DNA from: an uncultured Verrucomicrobia subdivision 3 bacterium | GTDB lineage: Bacteria > Verrucomicrobiota > Verrucomicrobiia > Limisphaerales > UBA11358 | Length of the DNA: 46,551 bases | Reading direction: 5' to 3' | NCBI GenBank assembly: GCA_903850425.1 | Contig: CAINLR010000081.1 | Coordinates: forward strand, 1-46,551 | Shown here: one piece after another, positions 17,186 through 45,822 of the stretch | Numbering within the stretch: the stretch's first letter is position 1 | Layout: every line of letters starts with the position of its first letter | Position numbers and translations under genes: made by a program | The notes under the pieces: model-generated | Databases searched by the model: none | What the model was told of the DNA's origin: nothing | Seen by the model: only the letters and a program-made list of their open reading frames with translations

Positions 17186-17485
17186 TTTGGCTTGGGGAAG
17201 GGAAAAGCCATCATCCCCACCGCGCCGGTCCGCTGCCCGGCTGGAAATAATTTGCGAAAATCGCTTGCGCCGCCGCCGATGGTGCTTATGATGGCTCCCA
17301 TCCACCACAAATCTTTCTGATGCTTCATCAGATTTCTTTGCGGTCGGGGCTGAGGAAACCATGAGCCGGGCAAGGCATGCGGAGTCAGGGTTGGATCGAA
17401 ACAGAATCAAGTTGTTCCCGATTCTGTTTCCCTCAAGGAGAAGCTTTGTCCCCTGCTCCCGGCAGTCCCCGGCACCAAATCCCCG
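17186..17485. other. Intergenic leader of the 21-bp array
   Basis: No gene. It contains an imperfect hairpin around 17306-17336 (CTGATG/CATCAG core) and the perfect hairpin at 17398-17430 listed separately. Beyond about 17465 it grades into the tandem array. Confidence 0.4.
17398..17430. repeat. Perfect 11-bp inverted repeat ahead of the 21-bp array
   Basis: GAAACAGAATC at 17398-17408 and its exact complement at 17420-17430 enclose an 11-nt loop, about 55 bp before the first complete 21-bp unit. It could be a transcription stop for argB (no clear T-tract) or a landmark of the array. Confidence 0.6.
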
Positions 17486-17674
17486 CCTGATACCACCGAC
17501 TCCTGACCTGATACCGCCAAGTCCCCGCTTGGTAAAGCCAAACCCCGGCCTGGTAAAACGAAATCCCGGCCTGATACCGCCAAATCCCGGCCTGATACCG
17601 CCGACTTCGCGCTGCGTAAAGCCAAGTCCCGGCCTGATACAATCAAAACCGGGCCTGATACGATCAAGTTCCGC
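17486..17674. repeat. 21-bp tandem repeat array, nine units
   Basis: Nine consecutive 21-bp units in perfect register, with a degenerate unit on each side (17465-17695). The unit reads approximately CCTGATACCGCC followed by AAATCCCGG; unit-to-unit changes are mostly single bases, and length never changes. No spacers intervene, so it is not CRISPR. Because 21 is a multiple of three the frames stay open and would encode seven-residue repeats, but no start, codon or domain evidence makes this a gene. It precedes the 238-residue unknown gene. Confidence 0.88.
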
Positions 17675-18707: not shown

Positions 18708-18811
18708 GTAGCGCGGCCGTCCCCGGCGGCGGGTGCCGGCGGCGTCTCGCCGCCAGTTCCATCGCCGGGCGGGACGCCCGGCCAACCCGCCGGCGGGACG
18801 CCTGCGCTACA
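18708..18811. repeat. REP-like element, copy 1 (GTAGCGC family)
   Basis: A GC-rich element starting GTAGCGCGGCCGTCCCCGG and ending GGCGGGACGCCTGCGCTAC, so its outer ends are inverted complements; inner hairpins include GGCGGCG/CGCCGCC and GGGCGGGACGCCC. It is homologous to the copies at 19197-19322 and 19951-20056 that flank the RAYT gene, and to the copy inside the kinase gene at 32103-32216. Confidence 0.85.
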
Positions 18812-19196: not shown

Positions 19197-19322
19197 GTAG
19201 CGCAGCCGTCCCCGGCGGCGGGTTCGGGCACCGTCCCGGTGCGCGTTTCTGGAACTGGCGGCAATTTTGCAACTAGCGGCGAGACGCCGCTGCAACCCGC
19301 AGGCGGGGACGCCTGCGCTACG
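19197..19322. repeat. REP-like element, copy 2, upstream of RAYT
   Basis: Starts GTAGCGCAGCCGTCCCCGG and ends GGGGACGCCTGCGCTACG. Shares the outer inverted ends and the GGCGGCGAGACGCC-type inner segment with the copy downstream of the transposase gene. It joins directly to the broken methyltransferase fragment on its left and stops 4 bp before the RAYT ATG. Confidence 0.88.
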
Positions 19323-19326
19323 AGTG

Positions 19327-20031
19327 ATGCCTGACAATAAACATCTGGTGGCGGGATTGCATTCGCGCGGGGTGCTGCCGCATTTGAAACGCGAAGGCGG
19401 AACTTATTTTGTCACGTTCCGCCTGGCGGGCACCTTGCCGAAGGAAGTGCTGCTCCGGTTCAAACAGGAGCGCGCGGCCATTCTCCAGCAGGCCGAGGGG
19501 GCGAAACGTCCGCTGACGTGGCACGAGCAGGAGGAGTTGTTCCGATGGTATTCGAGCCGGGTGGACAAGCATCTGGATGCGGGTCACGGCACTTGTCATC
19601 TGTGCGATCCAGAACTGGCGGCAATTGTCGCCGGGGCGATTCAGTTTTTTGAAGGACAGCGTTATGAACTACGCGCGTGGGTGGTGATGCCGAATCATGT
19701 TCATGTGGTCGTCTGGCCGAAACCGCCGCAGACGTTGAGCGCCATTTTGCACAGTTGGAAATCCTACTCGGCGCATGAGATCAATCATCGTCTGCCGGCT
19801 CCGGTGGTTCCGTTCTGGCAGGGCGAATCTTATGACCATCTTATCCGCGACGAGGATGATCTGCACCGGTGCTGTCATTACACGCTGATGAATCCGGTGA
19901 ACGCCGGGCTGTGTGCGCGGATGGAAGATTGGAAATGGAGCAGCGCATATGTAGCGCAGCCGTCCCCGGCGGCGGGTGCGGGCACCGTCCCGGTGCGCAG
20001 TGCTACAACTGGCGGCGAGACGCCGCTGTAA
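19327..20031 (+). CDS. REP-associated tyrosine transposase (RAYT, Y1/HUH)
   Basis: Domesticated IS200-type single-strand transposase that in other bacteria recognises REP palindromes. The ATG at 19327 is chosen because the in-frame TTG at 19267 lies in the repeat. Features: HLKREGGTYFVTFRLAG at the N-terminus, the HUH motif in VVMPNHVHVVVWPK, a helix with LHSWKSYSAHEIN, and the Y1 region YDHLIRDEDDLHRCCHYTLMNPVNAG with the presumed catalytic Tyr. The last 25 or so residues are encoded by the downstream REP copy, which also supplies the stop codon. 234 residues; otherwise intact. Confidence 0.9.
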   Translation: MPDNKHLVAGLHSRGVLPHLKREGGTYFVTFRLAGTLPKEVLLRFKQERAAILQQAEGAKRPLTWHEQEELFRWYSSRVDKHLDAGHGTCHLCDPELAAIVAGAIQFFEGQRYELRAWVVMPNHVHVVVWPKPPQTLSAILHSWKSYSAHEINHRLPAPVVPFWQGESYDHLIRDEDDLHRCCHYTLMNPVNAGLCARMEDWKWSSAYVAQPSPAAGAGTVPVRSATTGGETPL

Positions 20032-20056
20032 CCCGCAGGCGGGACGTCTGCGCTAC
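19951..20056. repeat. REP-like element, copy 3, overlapping the RAYT 3' end
   Basis: 106 bp starting GTAGCGCAGCCGTCCCCGG and ending GGCGGGACGTCTGCGCTAC, in the same orientation as copies 1 and 2. The RAYT reading frame continues 81 bp into it before TAA. Together with copy 2 it brackets the transposase gene. Confidence 0.88.
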
Positions 20057-28997: not shown

Positions 28998-29291
28998 AAC
29001 CTTTCAACGCCTTGGTCGCGGACGGCAACGAACCGGTCGAACGGCGCCATGAGCCGGTCGAACCGTGCCAGCCCCTGGTCGGAGCGTGCAACGAGCCGGT
29101 TGCTGGTGTCATACGCTCGGTCGGGTGGTTCCAAGCGCCGGTCGTGCTATTCAACGCGCCGGTCGTGCGGTTCAACGTGCCGGTCGGGTCGTTTAATGCG
29201 CCGGTTGTGCTATTCCAAAGACCGGTTGTGCCATTCCAAGGGCCGGTCGGGTCATTCAATGCGCCGGTCAGATCGTTCATTTGTCCAGTTG
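28998..29291. repeat. 21-bp tandem repeat array, fourteen units
   Basis: Fourteen consecutive 21-bp units in exact register (294 bp), with the most conserved part reading TTCAACGCGCCGGTCG and a variable five-base start. The leftmost units are more degenerate. No spacers. The array starts about 59 bp upstream of the sigma factor start and ends about 125 bp from the stop of the secreted Ig-like gene. All frames tend to stay open, producing long spurious reading frames. Same period as the array at 17486-17674. Confidence 0.9.
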
Positions 29292-29852: not shown

Positions 29853-32800
29853 TTATTTGGTGTGGAAAATCAGCAGGTAAGGCACCGCCGGACGACCCGC
29901 CTGGTCGGTGAAGTTTTGAAATCTTTCGCTGTTCAGCCAAAACGCATAAGTTTGTCCCGGTTCCAGTTTCACCTGGACCACACAGGTGCGTGCGTCCGCT
30001 GCATAATGCGGCTTGCCGGTGAACTCCGGCGCGGAATTTTCCCACGCGCTGGACCAGCTCCACGAGCCGTCCGTCATTGGCTTGCTGAACCGCACGCGGA
30101 TTTCTGTTTCGCCCGGCGGCACATCGCTTGCGCCGGAGACGGGAAACGTCTCGACGATGACGGGCGGTTGTTTGTCCAATGTCACATTGTCCTGATCCTG
30201 CGGATGAGGCGTGATTTTAATCTCGGTCGGTTGCGGCTGACTGGCATTTCGTTGCTGTCCGGCCAAGGCCGAAAGGCGCTCGCTATAACTGCTGCCTGGG
30301 ACGCTTTGATCAAACGCATCCGCCGCATGAGTTGCGGCTTTATAAAGGTCTTTCCCCAGACTCAAATCGCCGGCTTTGATCGCACCATGTGCCCGCGTGT
30401 AAAGCGAAATTACATTGGCGGGCAGTTCCATATCTGTTCCGCGGAGATACCGATTAAGCGAACGCAGTTGTTCCAGGAACAACTCTGATGTCGTTTGCGC
30501 CGTGGCCTGGTCTTTTTGTGCGAGGGCTTTGTCGAGCGTGTCGCCCAATCCGTCCATGGCACCCAAAGCGGCAACGGCCTGGGCATAGTCGGGTTGGTTG
30601 GTTGAGCTGGTGGCCTTTGCCGGCGGTTCAATCAGCATCCGCAGGCCATCGCTCAAACTTTTTTGCTTGGCTGCTTCGAGCATTTTTTTGGCGGTTTCGT
30701 CAGCCTGGCCGGAGTCCACGAGGTTCTGCGACCATTTTTCGGCCTGGTCGAATTTGCCTTCGAGCAAATACAACCGCGCCAGCCCGAACCACGCGGCGGG
30801 CGCATTCGGCGCGGTCTGGAGTAGAAATTTTTCCGCGTCGTCATATTTCCGCTGCGACAAATAAATCTGTCCCAGCCCGTTCAGCGCCGCCGGATGATTC
30901 GGTTCAATGGCCACGGCTTTTTGAAACGACGTTTCCGCCGCCGCACTGTTGCCGGAATTGAATTGCGCCCAGCCGAGACCGTTCCATGTGTTCGCGTCGT
31001 CGGGCGCGAGTTGCACGGCTTGTTGAAATTTCGCCTCGGCCTCGGTCCGTTTGCCCGCCTGCAAGAGCTGCCAGCCTTCTTGACTCAATTCGGACGCGTG
31101 GTCGCTGGTCGAAGCGTGTTTGATGATGCTCACCAGCCGTTGCTGGAATTGTGACGGCTGCGCGGTTCGAGTGTCGCCGTTCAAATTCAGTTTGCGCTCG
31201 CTGGCGGCCTCGGCTTCGGTGCCAAAATAAATGCCAGCGAAAGCATGATGATCGTTATACATCGAAACATGCGGCAGTCCGGGCACAAGGTGGGAACGGG
31301 ATAGTTCAAAATCACCCCGGCCTTTGGAAATGTGGATGCTCTGCGGAGGTTCCGTCTGATTTGGAACCTCGTCATGATTGGTCGCCGTGATGTTCAGCCA
31401 CAAGGACGCTTCGTCGGCGCTGACGAGATTGTAATGACCTTTTACGGTCATCTGATTTTCACCGCGTTCGACCGAGGTGATTTCGATGGAATCGCCTTTT
31501 GGAAAATAAGATTGGCCGATGTAATCGGATTTCACAGCCGGCGGATGGGCAGACGGCTTGAAAATGGCTATCGGCACGATGATCGCCAGGACAATGATGG
31601 CGGAGGCAATCGCCAGCAAAGCAAACGCGCCGCGCGGATTTCCCAAATTGACCGTCTGCCCGAAGCGGGGAATCTGTTTTGGCACCCACGCCCGCGAGTC
31701 GCGTTTGCTGAAATAAACGGAAAGCCATTTCGGGCCGGTCCAATTCTGCGGGTTGCGCCACTCGGCTTCATTGATGGCCGTTTGTTCCGTCAGCGATTTG
31801 GCCGGCGGCGGCGTTTCTGAAATCGTCTCCACTTCCGTCTTGAGCACGTTGGCTTGCTGGTAGCGCAGTTCCGGTTTCTTTTCCAGCGCGCGCAGCACCA
31901 CTTCATCCAGCCGCACGTCAATGTGAACTTTTGACGACGGCGGGGCGATGCTTTTCCCGGGCAGCTCGCCGGTGAGCATCTGATAAAACACCACGCCGAG
32001 CGCGTAAATGTCCGCGCGATGATCCACGGCGTCGGGATGTTCCTTCTGCTCCGGTGCCATGTATTGCGGCGTGCCCATGACTTTGCCCGCATCGGTCAAA
32101 TCCTGGAGCGCAGGCTTCCCAGCCTGCGGGTTCACGGAGCCTCCCGGCTCCGTGGTTCCCGAACTGGCGGCGGGGACGCCGCCAGAACCCGCAAACGAGG
32201 ACGTCTGCGCTACGTTGCCGACAATTTTCGCCAGTCCAAAATCCGCGACCTTCACGCGACCGCGGCGATCCAGCAAAATATTTTCCGGCTTGATGTCGCG
32301 GTGGACGATGCCCTGATCGTGCGCGAATTGCAGCGCGTCGCAAATCTGGGGCACGATGGCCAGCGCCTCGCGCGCGGAAATGCGGCTGCTGTGGAGAAGC
32401 TGGCGCAAGTTAACGCCGTCCACGAATTCCATGAGGAAGTAGTAAAGTAAGGCAGGTGCCTCCCCGGCCGGCACCGGCATTCCCGCCGAACCGCTCGCGC
32501 TGACGCGCTCGCTGGGCAGGCGAGCCGCCTGCCCTATGTTACCGAATTCATACAGCGTCACGATGCCGGGATGATTGAGCTTCGCCAGCGCCCTGGCCTC
32601 GCGCGTGAAGCGTTCGGCAAACGCCGCGTCGTTGCCGATGCCGGGCGGAAGAATCTTCAACGCGACGATGCGATCCAATTGCTTCTGTCGCGCCTTGTAA
32701 ACCGCGCCCATGCCGCCTTTGCCGATGAGTTCGAGAATTTCCAGTTGCGGAAACAGCGGTGCCAGTTCCGCGACACTGGGCGGATGAAACGCTGGTTGTT

Positions 32801-32948
32801 TCGCATCCGTGACGGTGTCCGCCGCCGCGCCCATTTTGAGCAGACAGGAGGGACACAGTCCGGCCAACGCGCCGATTGGCAGCGGCGTGCCACATTGCGG
32901 ACATTTGTTTCCGTCGGGCATGGGTGCATTCATTTTTACCGTGTCCAT
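29853..32948 (-). CDS. Membrane Ser/Thr protein kinase with TPR and Ig-like domains
   Basis: 1031 residues. N-terminal zinc ribbon (C16, C19, C32, C35), then a Hanks-type kinase: GKGGMGAVYKARQ, catalytic K98 in VALKIL, HRDIKPENILL with D218, DFG at 236-238, GTPQYMAPEQ at 292-301. One membrane helix at about 441-464, then an extracytoplasmic part with TPR repeats (about 640-790) and a C-terminal Big_5-like domain (about 925-1031) paralogous to the adjacent secreted protein. Two in-frame inserts in the kinase domain, residues 138-167 and 245-282, correspond to palindromic repeat elements (see those entries). With the secreted protein and sigma factor it likely forms an envelope-sensing locus (inference). 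Confidence 0.9.
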   Translation of the reverse strand: MDTVKMNAPMPDGNKCPQCGTPLPIGALAGLCPSCLLKMGAAADTVTDAKQPAFHPPSVAELAPLFPQLEILELIGKGGMGAVYKARQKQLDRIVALKILPPGIGNDAAFAERFTREARALAKLNHPGIVTLYEFGNIGQAARLPSERVSASGSAGMPVPAGEAPALLYYFLMEFVDGVNLRQLLHSSRISAREALAIVPQICDALQFAHDQGIVHRDIKPENILLDRRGRVKVADFGLAKIVGNVAQTSSFAGSGGVPAASSGTTEPGGSVNPQAGKPALQDLTDAGKVMGTPQYMAPEQKEHPDAVDHRADIYALGVVFYQMLTGELPGKSIAPPSSKVHIDVRLDEVVLRALEKKPELRYQQANVLKTEVETISETPPPAKSLTEQTAINEAEWRNPQNWTGPKWLSVYFSKRDSRAWVPKQIPRFGQTVNLGNPRGAFALLAIASAIIVLAIIVPIAIFKPSAHPPAVKSDYIGQSYFPKGDSIEITSVERGENQMTVKGHYNLVSADEASLWLNITATNHDEVPNQTEPPQSIHISKGRGDFELSRSHLVPGLPHVSMYNDHHAFAGIYFGTEAEAASERKLNLNGDTRTAQPSQFQQRLVSIIKHASTSDHASELSQEGWQLLQAGKRTEAEAKFQQAVQLAPDDANTWNGLGWAQFNSGNSAAAETSFQKAVAIEPNHPAALNGLGQIYLSQRKYDDAEKFLLQTAPNAPAAWFGLARLYLLEGKFDQAEKWSQNLVDSGQADETAKKMLEAAKQKSLSDGLRMLIEPPAKATSSTNQPDYAQAVAALGAMDGLGDTLDKALAQKDQATAQTTSELFLEQLRSLNRYLRGTDMELPANVISLYTRAHGAIKAGDLSLGKDLYKAATHAADAFDQSVPGSSYSERLSALAGQQRNASQPQPTEIKITPHPQDQDNVTLDKQPPVIVETFPVSGASDVPPGETEIRVRFSKPMTDGSWSWSSAWENSAPEFTGKPHYAADARTCVVQVKLEPGQTYAFWLNSERFQNFTDQAGRPAVPYLLIFHTK
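32103..32216 (-). repeat. REP-like element inserted in frame in the kinase activation loop
   Basis: 114 bp encoding residues 245-282 of the kinase. Read on the minus strand it runs from TAGCGCAGACGTCCTCG through CTGGCGGCGTCCCCGCCGCC to AACCCGCAGGCTGGGAAGCC, the same outer ends and order as the elements around the RAYT gene (18708, 19197, 19951). It lies between DFGLAKIVG and LTDAGKVMGTPQYMAPEQ, that is, in the activation segment, and keeps the frame open (38 codons). Confidence 0.85.
32451..32533 (-). repeat. Palindromic element inserted in frame between kinase beta strands
   Basis: About 83 bp with inverted ends (GGCAGGTGCCTCC at the left; complement of GGCAGGCGGCTCG at the right). With a few flanking bases it encodes residues 138-167 of the kinase, between TLYEFGN and LYYFLMEFVDG, where kinases normally have a short beta4-beta5 turn. 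Distinct in sequence from the activation-loop element but of the same style. Confidence 0.78.
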
Positions 32949-43256: not shown

Positions 43257-43701
43257 ATGCAGGGGGTAGCCATAACCGCCGCGGCCATCGGCCAGAAAAT
43301 TGGCCGGATTTGGCTGCAAATTTGGCCGTTGATTGGCTGGGAACTTGCCGCAGATTGGCCGGGCGCTGGCCGTTATCGTGGCTGGCTACGGGCGGAGTTA
43401 TGGGCAAAACTCGAAAGATTCGGCTGTTTTGCAGTGCCGGCAGCTAGATTTGCTACCGATAGACGGCTTGGTTGCTGGCTGCCCGCTCTATGGCCGGGCT
43501 TGGCAGGCTGTGGCTGGGCTGGTTACGCGGCCGCGACTGAGAGCTTTGGAAGGGGCCTTGGGAGTTAGCCGAAGCCGGCTTGTCGGCTGGCCGATGGCTG
43601 GCTGCGAGTTTTCGGGAGTTGTCGTCGGTCAGTGATTGCCGCCAGCAAGTTTGCTGGGCACACCCGATAATTGAGCTGGTTTGCTTGGCTGGCAATTGGG
43701 C
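43257..43701 (+). other. GGCTGG-rich, strand-biased tract, no gene
   Basis: About 450 bp dominated by TGGCTG, GGCTGG and TGGCCG on the plus strand, with almost no CCAGCC on that strand, giving a strong G+T skew. All three plus frames are largely open and would give Trp-rich peptides, but none looks like a protein. The skewed composition continues through the direct repeat at 43702-43944. Confidence 0.6.
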
Positions 43702-43944
43702 TTGCAGCCGTTAAGAAGCGTATGGCCGGCCATGTGATTGGCTGCGGTTTTGGCTATGGGCTGGCTGGTTTTGGCTGAAATTGTGGCTGGCGTTGGCCAC
43801 CGCATTGAGCAAAGTTGCTGGAAAATGCCAATGATTTAGCATTTTAGCTCTTCATGTAGCCGCGACGTGGCTGGCTTGGCTGTGGCCGAAGCCGGAGGGC
43901 TGACACCGGGCTGCCATTTAGCCGGGCCACGGCTACGGCTGGCC
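43702..43944. repeat. 243-bp direct repeat, copy A
   Basis: Begins TTGCAGCCGTTAAG and ends GGCTACGGCTGGCC; aligned without gaps to copy B at 45580-45822, with about ten mismatches. Contains GGCTGG words and an AT-rich centre (AATGATTTAGCATTTTAGCT). Confidence 0.9.
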
Positions 43945-44027: not shown

Positions 44028-45266
44028 TCACTGCATTAAGGCCCGATAAAACCGTTGTGCATATTGATTTGAACTTGTTTCTGTAAAAGACCAAATTCCA
44101 TTACCATCAGTGAAGTTTGTTACAACTGGTTGCCATGCTGGGGAATTGAGATTGGTGGCTGCTTGCAAAATATATGGATAGCTTGGCAAGCCGTTAAATT
44201 GCAAAACTGAATTTGCCCCATTGCATCTGTCAGAAAAGTTTTGCGGCGGGTAAAGTAAATGTCCGGTAAAAACCCCTACGGTAGAAGTAGTCATCGCCAA
44301 ATTTATCCCATTGGCTGATGAAACAATGCCACTTCCACAACTCTGCCCGGTATCTATCCAAGTTCGTCCCGAGTCTACAGATGCATAAAAATCCCCAGAA
44401 ACAGCTCCAGCTACCAATCTATTTCCGTCAGCCGATGAGACGATTTTCTGCCAATTTAAGTTTGGAGCGCTTGTTTTGGACCATGTCATGCCAGAGTTTG
44501 TAGAAATATATATGCCGTTAGCCAAATACCCGCCAGCCACCAGTTTTATTCCATCGGATGACGAAGCAACGCAACCCCATTGCACACCAGGAATATTATT
44601 TGATTTCCAATTAAATCCTGAATTTGTGGATGTATAAATGTTGATCGTATCTGTCGCAATTAACTTTGTTCCATCGGATGATGTTGCTATGCGAAGCCAC
44701 GATGGCCCGGGTGGTTTCCCAATCGTGGCGACCCAAGTGGTCCCCGAATTTGTTGAGACCCAAATACCATAATAACATGTAGCAGCCAATTTTGTTCCGT
44801 CCGCCGATAAAGTAACCGAATTCCAATCTTCCCAAGGTGCGCTCGTTTTTACCCATGAGAATCCAGAGTTGCTAGAGATAAAAATAAACCCTTGGCTGGT
44901 GTTAACATAATCGGTGTGGCCGCCAGCGACCATTTTCGTTCCATCAGACGACGCTGCAATACAGGCTAATCCCAAATTTCCAGCACCTAGCACAGATGTC
45001 TTTGTCCATGTAAGCCCCCTATCAGTTGACGAATAAATAAAGGCGTTGCCAACCACACCAGCCAAAGCTGCTAATGTTTTCCCATCCGAAGACGACGCCA
45101 TTTGCCCCCAATATATTTGTCCCCAATAACTATCAGTGCTTGGCGCACTGGTTTGCGTCCAAACATAAACCTGGGCAAAAAGTGATTCGGGACAAAACGC
45201 GGCAATGGTAATCAGAAAAAAACAGTTTTTGAAAAAGTTTATGGGGTTGCACCACTTAATTTTCAT
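44028..45266 (-). CDS. Secreted BNR/Asp-box beta-propeller protein
   Basis: 412 residues with a signal peptide (hydrophobic stretch ending near ESLFAQ). The body has about seven repeats built on SSDGTKL and STNSGxTW words, the Asp-box pattern of sialidase-like or photosystem-assembly-like beta-propellers (for example ISTNSGMTWSKTSAPNLNW). The C-terminal 75 residues (YILQAATNLNSPAWQPVVTN, FYRALM) are of a type that ends many Verrucomicrobiota secreted proteins. Codon use is AT-richer than in the core genes. It lies between the two 243-bp direct repeats, so may be mobile cargo. No enzymatic residues could be assigned. Confidence 0.82.
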   Translation of the reverse strand: MKIKWCNPINFFKNCFFLITIAAFCPESLFAQVYVWTQTSAPSTDSYWGQIYWGQMASSSDGKTLAALAGVVGNAFIYSSTDRGLTWTKTSVLGAGNLGLACIAASSDGTKMVAGGHTDYVNTSQGFIFISSNSGFSWVKTSAPWEDWNSVTLSADGTKLAATCYYGIWVSTNSGTTWVATIGKPPGPSWLRIATSSDGTKLIATDTINIYTSTNSGFNWKSNNIPGVQWGCVASSSDGIKLVAGGYLANGIYISTNSGMTWSKTSAPNLNWQKIVSSADGNRLVAGAVSGDFYASVDSGRTWIDTGQSCGSGIVSSANGINLAMTTSTVGVFTGHLLYPPQNFSDRCNGANSVLQFNGLPSYPYILQAATNLNSPAWQPVVTNFTDGNGIWSFTETSSNQYAQRFYRALMQ

Positions 45267-45355: not shown

Positions 45356-45592
45356 ATGGGTGAAACAGAAATTCAAATTGCGATTCAAATGTTCGAAGAA
45401 AATCACAGACTCATTGATCCTTTGAAAAGTCCATACGAACACAACATGACGTGTGGACTCTTAGCAATGGCTCGTGCCTTGGCCGAAATGAACGATCAAA
45501 TTATTGCACTTACAATGCGAGGTTCGGGTGTGGCAAAACCTGCGACTCCCGTAGCGTCCAGCAACGTCCCCGGACGGGTTTGCGGCCGTTAA
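45356..45592 (+). CDS. Small unknown protein ending in direct repeat B
   Basis: 78 residues, MGETEIQIAIQMFEENHRLI, then HNMTCGLLAMARALAEM. The first 53 or so residues look like ordinary protein. The last 20 run through sequence resembling the repeat region, with the TAA stop inside copy B (45580-45822), so the natural C-terminus may be lost. Family unknown. Confidence 0.5.
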   Translation: MGETEIQIAIQMFEENHRLIDPLKSPYEHNMTCGLLAMARALAEMNDQIIALTMRGSGVAKPATPVASSNVPGRVCGR

Positions 45593-45822
45593 GTAGCCTA
45601 CGGCCGGCCATGTGATTGGCTGCGGTTTTGGCTATGGGCTGGCTGGTTTTGGCTGAAATTTTGGCTGGCGTTGGCCACCGCATTGAGCAAAGTTGCTGGA
45701 AAATGCCAATGATTTAGCATTTTAGCTCTTCATGTAGCCGCGATGTGGCTGGCTTGGCTGTGGCCGAAGCCGGAGGGCTGAAACCGGGCTGCCATTTAGC
45801 TGGGCCAAGGCTGCGGCTGGCC
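45580..45822. repeat. 243-bp direct repeat, copy B
   Basis: Begins TTGCGGCCGTTAAG and ends GGCTGCGGCTGGCC; same length and orientation as copy A with roughly 95% identity by eye. It ends 5 bp before the stop codon of the protease fragment. Confidence 0.9.

Follow-up and report, generated by a model that had tools for sequence, protein, structure and literature searches.

GTAG-ended palindromes that lie inside ORFs in association with RAYT genes have been described previously, with the highest intragenic GTAG count reported for O. terrae, a verrucomicrobium, and flexible linkers or loops were proposed as tolerant, neutral sites for such REP sequences (PMC3733652). In the same report, recB of two Xanthomonas was struck at about the same site, and other genes of that functional class were struck at different sites (PMC3733652). 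The biochemistry of the REPtron and RAYT-REP systems involves a Y1 HUH transposase together with a GTAG tetranucleotide and a hairpin (PMC8266576). Another described case is the RPE of Rickettsia, a palindromic repeat found in frame in unrelated genes and predicted to be compatible with the host protein (review, PMC10969869). The RPE sequences of R. conorii carry CGTC at their ends, and a dedicated transposase is apparently missing for CGTC repeats (PMC3733652).

Here, we analyzed a stretch of 46,551 nt from an uncultured Verrucomicrobia subdivision 3 bacterium (hereafter the window), in which one Ser/Thr kinase gene carries two in-frame inserts, and compared it with relatives in other genomes, mostly represented by incomplete assemblies. 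The larger pattern is probably one of in-frame hairpin repeats in flexible loops of this kinase and other everyday enzymes, swapped between species of probable Verrucomicrobia.

The window kinase and its two inserts

The kinase gene and its inserts are located as follows.
29853 to 32948, minus strand: Ser/Thr kinase ORF of 1031 aa in a single frame, with a PknB-like kinase domain, TPRs and Big_5
32442 to 32543, minus strand: insert 1, residues 136–169, in the beta4-beta5 turn, with degenerate GTAG-like inverted ends, missing from the closest relative (genome G021)
32105 to 32213, minus strand: insert 2, residues 246–282, in the activation loop, a GTAG-ended REP-type element with four hairpins

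Pfam searches assigned Pkinase (PF00069), TPR and Big_5 domains to the 1031-aa protein. As claimed in a preliminary description of this DNA, the kinase domain contains two extra segments, at residues 137–168 (nt 32445–32540) and 246–282 (nt 32103–32213), the frame stays open throughout, and the Hanks-type motifs GxGGMG, K, E, HRDxKPEN, DFG and APE are all kept. Both segments are extra relative to insert-free homologues, which themselves align full-length with PknB. PknB is the nearest solved kinase by fold for the window kinase domain (Z 22.4, rmsd 2.3, 217 residues aligned) and also by sequence when an insert-free homologue is used as the query. A 27-sequence AlphaFold model placed the inserts in the beta4-beta5 turn and the activation segment, both at low confidence (pLDDT about 48 for insert 1 and 30–44 for insert 2).

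The palindromic character that had been attributed to both segments held for insert 2 and was weaker for insert 1. More palindromic than chance would give, the 109-nt element of insert 2 reached a DNA fold z of −6.0 relative to dinucleotide-shuffled loop sequences, and it has GTAG beside a hairpin, at nt 32213, and GGAG at the opposite end. Dispersed copies related to it are present in its own genome, including one of 76% identity on another contig (G000:C120) and, in agreement with the proposed kinship to REP-like copies around a RAYT gene, two GTAG-ended copies of 75 and 66% on C81; a further contig, C197, bears similar ends. By comparison, insert 1 (102 nt) has weak hairpins (z = −1.3) and only degenerate, imperfect ends, and no other full-length match to it was found in its own genome at E ≤ 0.01, where a mixed six-element query, with the best 40 of 94 candidates scored so that a miss is possible, returned only partial matches of 35 and 40 nt. 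Insert 1 is read as mobile because of its imperfect GTAG-like inverted ends and because its peptide (GQAARLP...) resembles the GQASSLP-type inserts in the same loop of other genomes.

A RAYT gene with flanking REPs, as expected of a GTAG REP system, was found in the window at 19267–20031.
18708 to 18810, no strand assigned: GTAG-type REP composite with the same family of ends
19197 to 19321, no strand assigned: GTAG-type REP composite upstream of the RAYT domain, 66% identical to insert 2
19267 to 20031, plus strand: RAYT (REP-associated Y1/HUH transposase) ORF with a putative start, Y1_Tnp (PF01797) at 19651–19827, and HUH and Tyr motifs retained
19951 to 20056, no strand assigned: GTAG-type REP composite, 75% identical to insert 2, encoding the C-terminus of the RAYT ORF

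The assignment of this ORF as a RAYT rests on PF01797 and on its alignment with other RAYTs. Since the REP copy at 19951–20056 supplies the final codons, the C-terminus of the predicted transposase would itself be REP-encoded.

The closest relative by whole-domain score, in G021, lacks insert 1 and carries a diverged insert 2 (peptide identity 67% vs. 90% in the kinase core), and thus does not share both inserts as conserved peptides. Between these two kinases, insert 2 showed pS of 0.18–0.21, pN of 0.15–0.16 and w of 0.67–0.85, against pS of 0.46–0.47 and w of 0.07–0.08 in the kinase core. In most insert pairs pN was near pS, the exception (L157/L180) having one change only. The insert peptides appear to be free of visible selection, with little protein-level constraint. 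It had been suggested that the element is tolerated or used as protein sequence; these values agree with toleration and do not support use.

The parallel with Rickettsia RPE drawn in the preliminary description proved apt for an in-frame, RAYT-associated GTAG palindrome inside a kinase, because the window kinase likewise has an in-frame palindromic insert that is missing from homologues. Unlike RPE, with its CGTC tag and no transposase, the present system has GTAG ends and a RAYT, recurs at the same sites and shows family turnover. The window insert thus appears to work like an RPE without being one.

Other repeats were also observed in the window. A CRISPR-like array lies at the contig end (46071–46551), with a repeat of about 35 nt that contains a long C-run and occurs in seven copies at 67–69 nt spacing. 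A 247-nt direct repeat, 96% identical, lies at 43698–43944 and 45576–45822, on either side of a 412-aa ORF (44028–45266). The 21-nt tandem repeats at 17474–17662 and 29034–29285 overlap ORFs and would give seven-residue units if translated.

Occupancy and turnover of the two kinase loops

Thirty close homologues, obtained from a search with matches in 35 of 59 genomes, were compared first, followed by a wider survey of 123 distinct kinase domains, in 27 of which at least one loop was not parsed by the anchors used. Both loops were hypervariable in the two sets and the core was not. Loop 1 was ≤7 aa in 72 of 107 parsed kinases and ≥16 aa in 28, and loop 2 was ≤20 aa in 25 of 110 and ≥34 aa in 41; many distant homologues have loops of 6 aa and 18 aa. 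Inspection of the DNA revealed that in many kinases the long forms are palindromic or repeat sequences differing from genome to genome. Among the first 30 homologues, 19 of the 49 loops of ≥36 nt had a fold z ≤ −3 against shuffles. Across the 123 domains, 16 of 17 strong inverted repeats were centered in the parsed loops, which make up 12.5% of the DNA (binomial p 5e-14, a value too small since the rows are related), and the 17th (L197) also lies in the activation segment but was overlooked by the anchors. Recognized inserts contain 14 of the 17, the remaining three being L199 (a 6-aa loop with no insert, probably chance), L141 and L149; L180 and L062, both counted, are one gene in two records. 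The shuffles and the loop concentration ruled out chance or base composition as the source of the palindromes. All 64 kinase matches listed in the close-homologue search were stop-free in frame, and in-frame stops were met in one kinase row among the wider-survey matches listed (G230:C24, TAA) and in the MutS row of G021 (TGA).

In loop 2, different families often have identical nucleotide boundaries, with GTAG starting 19 nt into the loop in eight kinases and CTAC ending 28 nt before the loop end in eight, four of each belonging to the RARHS clade. Other inserts, namely FGVPPSGG, TPSLSP and PSTLNSQ, are non-GTAG or simple repeats. As the FGVPPSGG and TPSLSP inserts have other ends, the kinase loops admit more than GTAG elements.

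Turnover was assessed on a tree of 75 kinase cores with the loops excluded, from which 34 distant rows of 109 had been dropped and whose bootstrap was unsettled; the family labels were peptide patterns defined after the sequences had been viewed, with L046, L176 and L076 hand-corrected beforehand. The loop-2 label changes about 38 times on this tree, compared with a minimum possible of 10 and an average of 43 for shuffled labels (1 of 200 shuffles gave so low a number). The labels are somewhat clustered relative to the shuffles, and part of the pattern is therefore inherited. The RAGSPLP family (F3) changes 7 times for 7 rows, with at least 6 changes forced by starred branches, and the corresponding figures are 6 for 6 rows in TPSLSP, 5 for 6 in GRDAPLG, 7 for 7 in RADLPV, 4 for 4 in FGVPPSGG and 5 for 6 in VAQTS, the family of the window. 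The four RARHS rows form a single clade, and the sisters L051 and L147 (100/99) carry different elements at one spot. Judging from these comparisons, the same two kinase loops have been repeatedly occupied by unrelated elements that turn over between species.

Silent divergence was lower in the element loop than in the gene next to it in all five pairs (0.21 vs. 0.47, 0.09 vs. 0.42, 0.08 vs. 0.24, 0.06 vs. 0.29 and 0.14 vs. 0.58), which are not all independent (two share a row, one RARHS clade) and involve small counts; in element-free loops it was not below the adjacent gene in 3 of 3 pairs, one of the nine pairs having been dropped for unequal loop lengths. Of 42 hairpin pairs in six related elements, 7 had both partners altered in one or more of the sequences. 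The element DNA would accordingly be younger than the surrounding gene, or homogenized, or constrained as a hairpin.

Copies of the kinase inserts were also sought elsewhere in their genomes, where all counts are lower bounds, the best 40 candidates per genome having been scored. Eight inserts of six genomes, searched jointly there, gave at least 22 to 68 matches per genome; the inserts of G001, G010 and G018 have copies in their own genomes, and for the G007, G016 and G037 inserts the matches were weaker or partial. Six further inserts, searched in G017, G025, G035, G030, G109 and G040, gave at least 15 to 54 matches each, the GRDAPLG-type query being derived from G002, a genome outside those searched. 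Among the matches listed, own-genome copies of the G001, G010, G018, G030, G109 and G025 inserts had 75–98% identity, the best copy reaching 89% for the G109 insert and 98% for the G025 insert, and the window-type four-hairpin element of G030 had more than 10 near-full-length copies at 75–83%. The G040 insert had short arm matches and the G035 insert no copy among the matches listed in its own genome.

The family of insert 2 (F1) is common, in diverged form, to the window, G021, G031, G030 and G040, which constitute a supported clade on a quick 109-row tree. This clade, the single RARHS clade and the clustering of labels are what would be expected if an ancestral protein insert had been vertically inherited and had diverged, with the palindromes arising secondarily. 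Such an origin is nevertheless very improbable, considering the repeated family changes on the tree, the silent divergence of the elements below that of the gene, the both-side changes at 7 of 42 hairpin pairs, the element copies outside the gene, and the 6-aa and 18-aa loops in many distant homologues.

Repeats and embedded transposases in other host proteins

In a 698-kb contig of G001, about 90% of which is predicted ORF, we found 27 strict GTAG palindromes, of which 14 lie in frame inside predicted ORFs (two in the kinase gene), 6 overlap the ends of ORFs and 7 lie in intergenic regions. The hosts include MutS, a U32 peptidase, RibD, a CofH/MqnC-type radical SAM protein and a type ISP methylase. 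When 17 other tetranucleotides were considered as palindrome ends in the same 698 kb, each gave 0–20 cases (GATG 20, GGAT 13, TAGG 12); GTAG is thus the top tag in G001, yet not exclusive, and it was rejected as the sole end type.

Four other proteins were then compared across genomes, MutS and RibD being picked since G001 bears an element in each, and RF3 and DnaE being the two judged best suited, after their domains had been seen, among 10 genes drawn at random from 94 in G001 that lacked a strict palindrome. The inverted repeats fell in two loops of MutS (16 of 19, in 31 frames), in one loop of RibD (6 of 8, in 30 frames) and in two loops of DnaE (6 of 6, in 30 frames). Owing to overlaps (three in L249, two in L275), the 16 MutS loop repeats represent 13 distinct elements, some of them simple repeats, and AGTTTCAAG in MutS is a simple or non-GTAG repeat insert. 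In RibD of L283, an element-like repeat lies away from the recurrent loop. RF3 had no element-type repeat in 30 frames, taken from genomes other than G021, G022 and G037, and its two inverted repeats were both read as chance. Given the non-GTAG or simple repeats in MutS and in the kinases, RAYT cannot account for all inserts. In the MutS loop of G001, the GTAGCAGC element is followed by the 3′ end of an element that relatives carry whole, an arrangement we read as a new element over an old one, i.e., a replacement footprint.

Two further observations concern these proteins. The first variable loop of MutS in G004 (L275) contains, in frame, well over 100 residues of foreign sequence that do not resemble REP peptides. 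In G021, G022 and G037, the RF3 alignment is interrupted near residue 293–299, and the parts are 90 nt apart in G021 and G022; more loop inserts may be the reason.

The earlier emphasis on the activation loop as a special site was not borne out, as the same events occur in MutS, RibD and DnaE loops. The location of insert 2 in the activation segment and the retention of the frame could suggest regulatory inserts, selected to tune kinase activity through this loop. We consider this very unlikely, because pN is near pS in most insert pairs, the peptides are unrelated among homologues, and the same process is seen in the loops of the other three enzymes. A disorder-prone reading frame was favored in 38 of 44 element loops, but equally in 27 of 31 element-free loops, and selection for it is not claimed.

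Y1_Tnp was present in 36 of 40 genomes searched, with 201 matches, and was absent from G007 (91% complete) and G016 (73%), though the kinase loops of both hold elements; a RAYT therefore need not be present now. Among the Y1_Tnp matches listed, long open frames, plus DnaE by chance, led to six RAYTs embedded in frame in host proteins, a number that covers in-frame cases only and gives no rate. They are located in DnaE of G026 (L372) and G037 (L366), ClpB of G006 and G014 (L367/L368), PriA of G018 (L369) and AlaRS of G013 (L371). A frame with Y1_Tnp in G020 (L370) was dropped as an embedded case, no host domain having been found. In the second DnaE loop of G026, the RAYT lies between two identical 69-nt REP copies within one stop-free frame of 1469 aa; the search for DnaE in this genome gave only two matches, both of them pieces of the RAYT-bearing frame. 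The RAYT of G037 occupies the same DnaE site, its contig starting within the RAYT, and the two ClpB proteins carry a RAYT at one common site. The contig of the G013 AlaRS case ends inside alaS. REP copies flank the embedded RAYTs in some cases.

All six embedded RAYTs retain the HUH and Tyr motifs, and the C-terminal tail of free RAYTs is missing from those in DnaE and ClpB. Pfam matches to both host and Y1_Tnp were obtained in 5 of 7 composite frames; the DnaE RAYT of G026, under that threshold, was recognized by alignment and fold. Like the REPtron and RAYT-REP systems, the present one combines a Y1 HUH transposase with GTAG and a hairpin, and the best fold match of the G026 model (pLDDT 85.6) is the solved RAYT-REP structure 4er8 (E 3e-6). 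In contrast to those systems, the embedded RAYT frames have no stop and, on each side that could be seen, read through into host sequence.

For ClpB, the comparison of G006 with G014 gave dS of 0.95 and w of 0.11 for the embedded RAYT, and dS of 0.83/0.78 and w of 0.10/0.13 for the ClpB halves. By these similar values, the ClpB RAYT appears to match its host in both age and constraint. Comparing G026 with G037, we obtained corresponding values of 1.05 and 0.21 for the DnaE-embedded RAYT and 0.80 and 0.32 for DnaE after the insert. It is a tentative proposal, with chances somewhat short of even, that an autonomous REP-RAYT-REP unit without its former stop codon is translated as an additional domain in loops of housekeeping proteins (DnaE, ClpB, PriA, AlaRS), that purifying selection at the protein level maintains it there, and that it seeds solo REPs into protein loops proteome-wide, in an intein-like niche without splicing in which loops serve as reusable landing pads.

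Inteins with homing endonucleases similarly place a mobility enzyme in frame inside essential proteins; in the present case no splicing (Hint) domain was found in the seven composite frames, and the inserts presumably stay in the protein. This likeness, together with the strong hairpins in the mRNA, would fit elements that are removed before or during translation, in an intron-like or intein-like manner or by ribosomal bypass. That explanation is the most improbable of those considered, for no intein domain was found among the Pfam matches of the seven composite frames at E ≤ 1e-6, and removal would not demand that 64 of 64 listed kinase matches be stop-free, although the TAA of G230:C24 and the TGA of the G021 MutS depart from this rule.

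Exact boundaries shared among families could result from transposition and equally from recombination that replaces one element with another in place. Each loop might have received a single old insertion that other families then overwrote through ectopic gene conversion at shared ends (GTAGGGC...GCCCTAC), with little new transposition. The same nucleotide boundaries across families in kinases and MutS, and the reduced silent divergence in 5 of 5 element-bearing but none of 3 element-free loops, make this a serious alternative, which we hold to be possible but less than probable. Families without shared ends (GTAGCGGC, GTAGCGCA and TTTGGAGTT) occur in the same loop, GTAGCGGC and GTAGCGCA with shifted 5′ boundaries; a hairpin constraint on the DNA could equally reduce silent divergence; and the in-frame RAYT units show that insertion does happen.

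Proposed mechanism and significance

Taken together, it is likely that the kinase inserts are GTAG-type REP elements that were mobilized in trans by RAYT and landed in frame in two permissive surface loops of the PknB-like kinase, and that the same system fills loops of MutS, RibD and DnaE, with its RAYT form embedded in DnaE, ClpB, PriA and AlaRS. On this proposal, REP elements would be non-autonomous, hairpin-forming DNA, for which the RAYT single-strand transposases are the putative movers. We infer translation of the inserts from the conservation of the frame, and the segments would be left in the protein as disordered loops. An in-frame, stop-free insert would be harmless in these two loops, which may be why they are struck again and again, and an element already in residence may offer the next one a place to land or to recombine. 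Only in-frame elements would survive, and with time new insertions, recombination or the two together would exchange them. The presumed autonomous form would be a RAYT frame without a stop codon, placed between two REP copies in the clearest cases and embedded in host proteins.

Intragenic REPs are already known, and the present elements resemble those of PMC3733652 in being RAYT-associated GTAG palindromes inside ORFs. Compared with that report, many families have here refilled the same loops of the kinase, MutS, RibD and DnaE across an order, and complete RAYTs are present in frame; its supplementary target list may hold more cases, kinases included. A literature search, which covered articles outside their supplements, did not turn up a report of recurrent loop occupancy with family turnover or of RAYTs as in-frame domains of housekeeping proteins.

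These findings turn a one-off oddity into a testable system, in which mobile DNA lives in flexible loops of housekeeping proteins and its turnover is visible between species. They offer natural insertion-scanning data for kinases, MutS and DnaE, as well as a route for repeats to become protein sequence. If the embedded RAYTs are translated, a transposase could become inseparable from essential host proteins.
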